In this document: positions 62,649 to 63,438 of the stretch, in pieces
Layout: each line of letters starts with the position of its first letter
Numbering within the stretch: the stretch's first letter is position 1
Origin: Lindgomyces ingoldianus
Lineage: Eukaryota > Ascomycota > Dothideomycetes > Pleosporales > Lindgomycetaceae
Reading direction: 5' to 3'
NCBI RefSeq assembly: GCF_010093535.1
Contig: NW_022985187.1
Coordinates: forward strand, 788,051-852,050
Length of the DNA stretch: 64,000 bases
Position numbers and translations under genes: made by a program
The notes under the pieces: model-generated
Databases searched by the model: none
What the model was told of the DNA's origin: nothing
Seen by the model: only the letters and a program-made list of their open reading frames with translations

Positions 62649-63266
62649 AACGAGTGCGAGTGCCCGAGCAGGAAGGAGTAATAGCAAGGCCTAGGCAGCC
62701 ATTAGAAGTGGGTTATGTTAAGGTTGATATTCTTGCCGTATGGTGAGAGTTTGGGGCGACGGCAGCTCTATATGAACGAACAGTGCACCAGGGGCGCTCC
62801 TTTGCAGGTGATAGGGCGAGATGGAGCTCGAGGCTCCTTGTTCGATTCCATGCCGAGTGATCATTGGAAGGAAAGGGTAATCCTACCTCGATTGCGGTTT
62901 GCCTAATCTTCAAAGTGGATGGTGGGATCAATAGTGTCAGAAAAGGTCTGCGATGAGCGCACAGCTTTGGGAAATGGAAAGGGATGCTGATGATTGAGGG
63001 CTCGACGGTAGATGTCAGTTGTTCCTCGATCAGGTGCTTCGCACGTCCGATTCCCAACCCCTCATCCCAGCCACCAAACAGGCGGGGCAAAGCCCACAAA
63101 TGACCCAGCTAAGAAAGAAAGTGCCGTCATCATCTACGGCTGCATTTCTGCATGATACAAGGTGCGGGTGACTCATTGTAGGAAGATGGTCTTTCGATTC
63201 CTTTAATATGTATATATAGTGTGCAGAATTTTCAAAAATGATTAAATTTCACCTCGAATGATTCTA
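62649..63266. other. Intergenic region DPP5 to tRNA
   Basis: 618 nt. It includes the interrupted signal-peptide-like leader of DPP5 (62649-62702), the DPP5 promoter and the upstream flank of the tRNA gene. The last 60 nt before the tRNA are AT-rich. No other gene seen. Confidence 0.45.
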
Positions 63267-63423
63267 AGTCCTGTGGCGCAGTGGTAGCGCGCCGTTCTTA
63301 TATGATTCGTCAGACTCATATGGCCTCGTCTGGTAATGCGGATGCCGTGGGTTCGAGTGAGTCTGGTCCCCAATGTTTGTCGTTGCGTGCAGCCTAACAC
63401 ATTCAACAGACCCCACCAGGACT
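63267..63423 (+). tRNA. tRNA-Ile (anticodon UAU) with the usual anticodon-loop intron plus an insertion in the T-loop
   Basis: The acceptor stem AGTCCTG (63267-63273) pairs perfectly with CAGGACT (63417-63423). The D arm is GCGC-AGTGGTA-GCGC (63276-63290). The anticodon stem CCGTT (63292-63296) and loop CTTATA (63297-63302) give anticodon TAT at 63299-63301. A 33-nt intron (63303-63335) lies after position 37, where eukaryotic tRNA introns normally sit, and TGCGG (63337-63341) closes the stem with one T-T mismatch and one G-T pair. The variable loop is ATGCC. The T stem GTGGG (63347-63351) pairs with CCCAC (63412-63416), but the T-loop TTCGA/AC is split by 53 nt (63357-63409). The A box (TGGCGCAGTGG) is good. 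The B box is interrupted by the insert. The TGGCGCA, GCGCGC and CTTATA context is that of known tRNA-Ile(UAU) genes. A pseudogene is possible. Confidence 0.8.
63357..63409 (+). other. Spliceosomal-type intron (53 nt) inside the tRNA T-loop
   Basis: It begins GTGAGT, contains the branch-like CCTAACAC (63393-63400) and ends TTCAACAG. Length, donor, branch and acceptor match the mRNA introns of this window. Exact removal joins TTCGA to AC and restores a perfect T-arm and acceptor stem. It has no bulge-helix-bulge I could see by eye. Confidence 0.65.
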
Positions 63424-63431
63424 ATTCGGTC

Positions 63432-63438
63432 TTTTTTT
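63432..63438 (+). terminator. RNA polymerase III T-run terminator of the tRNA gene
   Basis: Seven T residues begin 9 nt after the tRNA 3' end (63423), the normal position and length for Pol III termination. This supports the 3' boundary that lies beyond the T-loop insert. Confidence 0.7.

Follow-up and report, generated by a model that had tools for sequence, protein, structure and literature searches.

The DNA analysed here, referred to below as the window, is a 64-kb stretch (contig NW_022985187.1, positions 788051-852050) from a 68.4-Mb assembly in 99 contigs of the freshwater fungus Lindgomyces ingoldianus (Dothideomycetes, Pleosporales, Lindgomycetaceae). It contains an intergenic gene for tRNA-Ile(UAU), and the nearest ATG open reading frames (at least 60 amino acids) are found beyond 300 bp upstream or beyond 1 kb downstream of it. 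As listed in Table 1, the gene is divided into three exons by an intron at 37/38 and by a 53-nt insert in the T loop, and these two interruptions, which had been claimed in a sequence-only reading of the locus, were confirmed, positions included. The A box was assigned with the A-box consensus, and within the 33-nt intron at 37/38 an ATA is able to pair with the anticodon. Joining of the exons gives a product of 72 nt with a perfect acceptor stem (7 bp) and a perfect T stem (5 bp), and with a U-U at 31-39.

Table 1. Features of the tRNA-Ile(UAU) gene (positions are those of the window)
Feature	Position	Strand	Evidence or remark
TATA-like element TATATATA	63211-63218	+	about 55 nt upstream of tRNA-Ile(UAU)
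tRNA-Ile(UAU) gene	63267-63424	+	sequence reading, ARAGORN; 37/38 intron and 53-nt insert at 58/59
Exon 1, bases 1-37: acceptor 5' strand, D arm, anticodon TAT	63267-63302	+	sequence, ARAGORN
A box TGGCGCAGTGG, unbroken	63274-63284	+	sequence
37/38 intron, 33 nt, predicted tRNA-endonuclease substrate	63303-63335	+	sequence, ARAGORN; exact ends inferred
Exon 2, bases 38-58: anticodon 3' strand, variable loop, T-stem GTGGG, T-loop TTCGA	63336-63356	+	
B box 5' part GGTTCGA	63350-63356	+	consensus complete only with 63410-63413 after splicing
Spliceosomal-type intron at 58/59, 53 nt, GTGAGT...CCTAACAC...CAACAG	63357-63409	+	ARAGORN, virtual splicing, splice anatomy
Branch-site motif CTAAC	63394-63398	+	A 13 nt from the 3' splice site
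Exon 3, bases 59-73: T-loop AC, T-stem CCCAC, acceptor CAGGACT, discriminator A73	63410-63424	+	
T7 run, Pol III terminator	63432-63438	+	sequence; 7 nt past the tRNA end

When the unspliced gene was submitted to ARAGORN, no tRNA was called, and a cmscan of the window against Rfam returned no tRNA at the gathering score. Removal of both inserts led ARAGORN to call a tRNA-Ile(tat) with a 7-bp acceptor and a 5-bp T stem, so that the perfect pairing claimed for the sequence freed of the 53 nt was borne out. When the 53 nt alone were removed, tRNA-Ile(tat) was still returned, with a 15-nt anticodon intron of the program's own guess; the tRNA call thus survived this removal with ARAGORN, which was used here instead of a covariance score. 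A covariance model provided with intron columns scored the loci well. Of the five interrupted tRNAs to which it was applied, three, namely Thr, His A and Ile(UAU), also belonged to the sequences, fitted with synthetic inserts, on which it had been trained.

To gauge how often this happens by chance, each of 8,224 virtual introns (GT-AG, containing a branch motif) was deleted in turn from 590,704 bases of sequence, which covered the window on its two strands together with 76 partly overlapping loci of some 3 kb. In the window, a single one of the 1,397 virtual introns created a tRNA, and this was 63357-63409. Over the whole set, tRNAs arose solely at seven of the interrupted genes described below, namely those that the chosen sequence covers, or where a junction fell close to the end of a tRNA that was intact from the start (L003/L068, L054, L066). 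For Ser(GCU) and Asp, further choices of GT and AG also restored a tRNA, and therefore their exact junctions are not unique. In a separate round of virtual splicing, Thr(UGU) was read as tRNA-Lys, because ARAGORN misplaced its 37/38 intron; with both introns removed it was read as Thr. The tRNA of Leu(UAG) was recovered in that round of virtual splicing. Among the interrupted genes described below, 13 of 13 spliced sequences were called as tRNAs by ARAGORN, two of them as 'tRNA-???' because the 37/38 boundary chosen left an extra loop base. When the 37/38 intron alone was removed, 8 of 13 gave no tRNA, and the other five needed a false anticodon-loop intron of 29-60 nt, three of them with the wrong isotype. 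Spliced Gly(GCC) copy 3 is identical to spliced copy 2, and spliced Asp copy 2 has one T-stem mismatch.

The insert of tRNA-Ile(UAU) has counterparts elsewhere in the genome. In a partial survey, 15 of the 50 tRNA genes found are interrupted by inserts of spliceosomal type, 16 in number, and the claim that the T loop of a nuclear tRNA holds an intron of mRNA type, so that the spliceosome and the tRNA endonuclease would both be needed, is supported by the like introns of the 14 further genes. This census is a lower bound, as 63 of 3,779 first-look candidates were scored in the Rfam tRNA search; it comprises 34 genes from Rfam (four of them interrupted), five additional genes without an insert (L098, L101, L106, L129 and L130) and 11 further interrupted genes, leaving out six places as degenerate or of doubtful identity (L079, L109, L115, L126, L128 and L147). 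The four interrupted genes that passed the Rfam cut-off are Thr(UGU), the two His(GUG) and one Ser(GCU), and their inserts were misplaced or not handled by ARAGORN. The others were obtained with A-box patterns, with a pairing script free of splice motifs, from two weak Rfam places, by DNA search and with a class II pattern. The pairing script, which asked for acceptor and D-arm pairing, a T loop and a T run, returned 12 candidates longer than 100 nt with a score of at least 16, and 11 of them carry an insert.

The inserts occupy ten mapped sites plus the serine variable arm. In the T arm and T loop they are found at 52/53 (Asp copy 2), 53/54 (Thr(UGU), His A and His B), 54/55 (Asn copy 2), 55/56 (Leu(UAG), locus L144), 58/59 (Ile(UAU) and Glu(UUC)) and 61/62 (Gly(GCC) copy 2), and elsewhere at 24/25 (Arg(UCU)), 25/26 (Ile(AAU) copies 1 and 2), 45/46 (elongator Met) and in the variable arm (Ser(GCU) copy 2); Gly(GCC) copy 3 has one at 19/20 and another at 61/62. 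A 37/38 intron is present in addition in nine of the 15 genes. The two Ile(AAU) genes (L132 and L133, G000:C36:228086-230174) are 1.8 kb apart and have a common intron site and diverged introns.

Several other places recovered in these searches were set aside. The one pairing-script candidate without a counted insert, L115 (G000:C6 near 146294, minus strand), has a tRNA-like D arm, T arm and acceptor and an insert that contains GTACGT...CATACTAAG; neither visual inspection nor the single GT-AG removal attempted revealed a convincing anticodon arm in it. The class II pattern matched 16 places, eight of them new: one is the interrupted tRNA-Leu(UAG), six were judged by eye not to be tRNAs, and the last (L147, G000:C33:263525-263830, plus strand) resembles a class II tRNA at its ends (acceptor GTCAGAT/ATCTGAC, T arm GCGGGTTCGAATCCCGC) and contains about 140 nt of GC-rich extra sequence, with no GT-AG solution by virtual splicing and no Rfam match at E 0.1. 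Degenerate tRNA copies also exist in the genome (L109, the Ile-like L126 and the Met-like L128). L126 (G000:C1:3081045-3081335, minus strand) is a third Ile(AAU)-like copy without the 25/26 intron; its acceptor stem is perfect and its T loop has five bases only (TTAGT).

All 16 inserts, whose boundaries follow from the tRNA fold to within a small shift, start with GTDRG and end with AG. Their 5' ends are GTAAGT in eight cases, GTGAGT, GTAGGT and GTTAGT in two cases each, and GTAAGC and GTAAGA in one case each. A YTRAY motif with its A 10-16 nt from the 3' end was likewise detected in 16/16, compared with 168 of the 4,334 AGs (3.9%) on the plus strand of the window. In length, 14 of the 16 inserts span 48-54 nt, the others 61 and 86 nt, which resembles mRNA introns of the same genome as judged from the two compared, both in the DUF726 gene of the window; these measure 48 nt each and start with GTAAGT and GTAGGT, and no YTRAY motif was found in the first of them. 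By their 5' splice site, branch motif and length, the inserts have the attributes of predicted U2-type GT-AG introns.

The survey was also inspected for uninterrupted copies of the affected genes. For Ile(UAU), an intact single-intron gene elsewhere had been proposed as the sign of a pseudogene, and when the spliced sequence was used as a DNA query against the genome, this locus was the sole match; none of the 34 tRNAs above the Rfam cut-off, among the 63 of 3,779 places scored, was read as Ile(UAU). A diverged copy could escape a DNA search, but a tRNA without interruption would be expected to reach a good score with Rfam. In the partial Rfam survey and the DNA search, no uninterrupted gene was found for His, elongator Met, Ile(UAU), Glu(UUC), Thr(UGU) or Arg(UCU). 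Interruption was seen in the two His genes found, in both full Ile(AAU) genes, in the sole intact elongator-Met gene found (assigned to this isotype because its anticodon is CAT and because it differs from the initiator, L011), in the sole copies found of Ile(UAU), Glu(UUC), Thr(UGU) and Arg(UCU) and, as far as the survey goes, in the sole Leu(UAG) copy found. For Gly(GCC), Asp, Asn and Ser(GCU), copies without such an insert also exist. No tRNA-Phe, Tyr or Cys, nor several other isoacceptors, were found in this incomplete census, and four places matched by a tRNA-Phe pattern were not tRNAs on reading. With an incomplete census, an uninterrupted gene for one or another isotype may have been overlooked. 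Provided that the assembly is complete, the living cell must be able to remove the introns, because neither tRNA-His nor elongator tRNA-Met is dispensable.

Three pairs of paralogues with a common insert site allowed exons and introns to be compared. The exons of two Gly(GCC) genes (L074 and L139) are identical over 71/71 positions, at which the uninterrupted copy also has the same letters (100% over 71 nt), whereas the introns of L074 and L139 at the common 61/62 site agree at 35/55 positions (shuffled mean 0.50, maximum 0.60). In the Ile(AAU) pair, 66/75 exon positions and 35/57 intron positions are identical (shuffled mean 0.50, maximum 0.59), and in the His pair 53/74 and 41/88, respectively (shuffled mean 0.40, maximum 0.48). 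The 60-nt flanks were at the level of shuffles in five of six cases, the upstream flank of the Gly pair (42/64) being above all 300 shuffles. On the whole, the introns retain hardly more similarity than shuffled sequences; those of the Gly and Ile pairs are slightly more alike than shuffles, so that divergence in these introns and in the Gly upstream flank is incomplete. When the stems were compared, 9/21 pairs of the His genes (common 53/54 site) had changed on both sides and none on one side, with 2/21 pairs non-standard in one or both genes, and in the Ile(AAU) pair (common 25/26 site) 4/21 had changed on both sides and again none on one. Exon identity and double-sided stem changes are not expected without constraint, which argues that the spliced product was selected while the intron was present. 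The three pairs point to purifying selection on the exons.

The signals expected of Pol III genes were examined in parallel. A run of five or more T within 30 nt was detected in 15/15 interrupted genes and in 30/30 other tRNA genes, compared with 1.7% of 4,000 window positions, and TATA[AT][AT] at -65 to -20 in 10/15 and 23/30, respectively, compared with 2.3% of 4,000 window positions. The A box, read by eye, is split in none of the 15 genes. The best B box of the unspliced genes keeps 9/9 consensus letters in four of them, 8/9 in five and 7/9 in six. Among the latter, His B, elongator Met and Ile(AAU) copy 2 have 7/9 letters after splicing too, and the letters are lost to the intron in Ile(UAU), Glu and Leu. 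The cost depends on the site. The 53/54 introns end in AG and therefore leave AGTTCRATTCY, with seven to eight of the nine letters; a single letter is lost with the introns at 61/62 and none with that at 52/53. The 58/59 introns of Ile(UAU) and Glu(UUC) leave 7/9 letters, and the claim that the B box of Ile(UAU) is broken by the insert was upheld, with C61 and C62 lost; no B-box core was found within 250 nt downstream of either gene.

In Asn copy 2 (54/55), the best B box, GGTTCAACCC, has 8/9 letters and lies inside the intron. In Leu(UAG) (55/56), the internal B box is destroyed, and a core, GTTCGAGTC, is found 28 nt downstream of the gene, the only downstream core in the 15 genes (88-250 nt scanned in each), at a chance expectation of 0.027 per 250 nt. 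As 15 genes and 16 introns were inspected, one chance hit is not very surprising, and the putative substitute B boxes of Asn and Leu are suggestive only.

The U6 genes, transcribed by Pol III as well, were read for comparison. Eight U6 matches were above the Rfam cut-off and nine were weaker, indicating several copies, most of them far below the best three; weaker matches of this kind also appear in prokaryote controls. The three best copies read are uninterrupted, so the inserts do not represent a general capture of all Pol III genes. Shortly downstream of two of these three copies (L152 and L154) stands a B-box-like GTTCGAGT, an arrangement like that of yeast U6 with its extragenic B box.

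Four other explanations of the inserts were weighed. Insertions in the D or T arm of eukaryotic tRNA genes are usually read as marks of pseudogenes, according to PMC4090602, and the interrupted genes could in that sense be tRNA pseudogenes hit by intron-like insertions, the more so as insert-free copies exist for Gly(GCC), Asp, Asn and Ser(GCU) and degenerate tRNA copies occur in the genome (L109, L126 and L128). Pseudogenes would not be expected to show the Gly pair's contrast of 71/71 exon with 35/55 intron positions, the 13 double and no single pair changes of the His and Ile pairs, the interruption of both His genes and of the sole intact elongator Met found, or the splice rules obeyed by 16/16 inserts, and we hold this explanation to be highly improbable. 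Even less probable appears removal of the inserts by the tRNA-splicing endonuclease, in the manner of the bulge-helix-bulge introns found at non-canonical sites in archaea and Cyanidioschyzon. Such an enzyme needs no GT at the 5' end, no branch motif and no AG, all of which are present in 16/16 inserts. Bulge-helix-bulge geometry consists of a 4-bp helix in which intron bases 2-5 are paired with exon bases 2-5; in our inserts 27 of 64 such pairs can form, compared with about 24 expected at equal base use. Pairing is near chance, and the endonuclease alternative therefore fails, despite the archaeal introns at 25/26, 45/46 and 53/54, with which three of our ten mapped sites coincide, and the non-canonical introns in nuclear tRNAs of C. 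merolae (both in PMC4090602).

The occurrence of inserts of similar length at eleven different sites of one genome could also be explained if they were copies of a single, still-spreading mobile element, with the tRNAs as incidental targets. Such elements, the introners, are known in fungi, and old ones could have decayed. When 13 of the 16 introns were used as queries (the two of Gly copy 3 and that of Leu being omitted), each matched its own place only, at E values up to 10, so an active introner is very unlikely, and it would bear on the origin of the introns and not on their removal. Self-splicing introns of group I or II were rejected as candidates: their catalytic cores exceed about 200 nt, the inserts measure 48-86 nt, and no Rfam match to such a family was obtained in the loci scanned. 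Removal by the spliceosome is the reading favoured by the inserts in 11 of the 12 candidates found without splice motifs, by the conserved exons and by the compensated stems.

Taken together, these sequence data make it very probable that the window carries a functional nuclear tRNA-Ile(UAU) gene with a short U2-type spliceosomal intron in its T loop, one of at least 15 such genes. It also seems likely, with somewhat more reserve, that about 30% of the nuclear tRNA genes, including all His genes and the sole intact elongator Met found, are obligate substrates of the spliceosome, with introns at many separate sites that mostly spare a usable B box, a substitute being placed in the intron (Asn) or downstream (Leu) where the box is destroyed. 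Translation would then require that Pol III transcripts be spliced, and two different splicing machineries would work on a single pre-tRNA. In the proposed pathway, Pol III would transcribe the gene from the region of TATA element, A box and B box and stop at the T run. The intron would be defined in the nucleus by U1 at GTRAGT, the branch site CTRAY and the AG, and the major spliceosome would remove it, as it does with the introns of fungal U6 snRNA. Only after this removal could the T arm fold onto the D loop, which would allow processing by RNases P and Z, CCA addition and export, while the 37/38 intron of nine of the 15 genes would be removed separately by the tRNA-splicing endonuclease and ligase.

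Introns of mRNA type in small non-coding RNAs have precedents. Fungal U6 (and U2) snRNA genes can carry them, and these are, as here, spliceosomal GT-AG introns, in the case of U6 also in a Pol III transcript, although the U6/U2 host is a component of the spliceosome itself, whereas the hosts in the present genome are at least 15 tRNA genes and the three U6 copies read are uninterrupted. They are also known in the nuclear rRNA genes of lichens and reportedly occur in the 18S rDNA of deuteromycetes (Rogers et al. 1993, cited in PMC11782384); these rRNA introns share with the inserts their short length, spliceosomal type and location in a structural RNA, but their host is transcribed by Pol I and they break no internal promoter, in contrast to the Pol III-transcribed tRNAs. 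Eukaryotic tRNA introns are taught as a separate class, at 37/38 and with a dedicated endonuclease. Such canonical introns coexist with the inserts in nine of the 15 genes, but differ from them in site, length, signals and enzyme.

Of the non-canonical tRNA introns of archaea, C. merolae and nucleomorphs, those of one nucleomorph are insertions of 3-24 nt whose mode of splicing is not understood, and the others are regarded as bulge-helix-bulge introns cut by the tRNA endonuclease (PMC4090602 and PMC3978253); no mention of the spliceosome was found in PMC4090602. Such ectopic introns resemble ours in lying outside 37/38, in the variable region and the D and T regions, and in some cases they accompany an intron at 37/38; unlike them, the inserts described here have spliceosomal signals and helix pairing at chance. 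PMC8450103 describes the non-canonical-intron step of tRNAscan-SE 2.0 for archaeal candidates. Among the matches listed in the open-licence literature, no report of a spliceosomal intron in a nuclear tRNA was found, which is not proof of novelty.

In this fungus, therefore, the mRNA spliceosome appears to serve a large share of the tRNA set, at sites nearly invisible to standard finders. This makes it possible to ask if spliceosomal processing of uncapped Pol III transcripts is a general phenomenon, how genes that have no reading frame acquire introns and how TFIIIC copes with a split B box. It also raises the question of how many 'missing' tRNAs or 'tRNA pseudogenes' of other fungi may really be intron-bearing genes.
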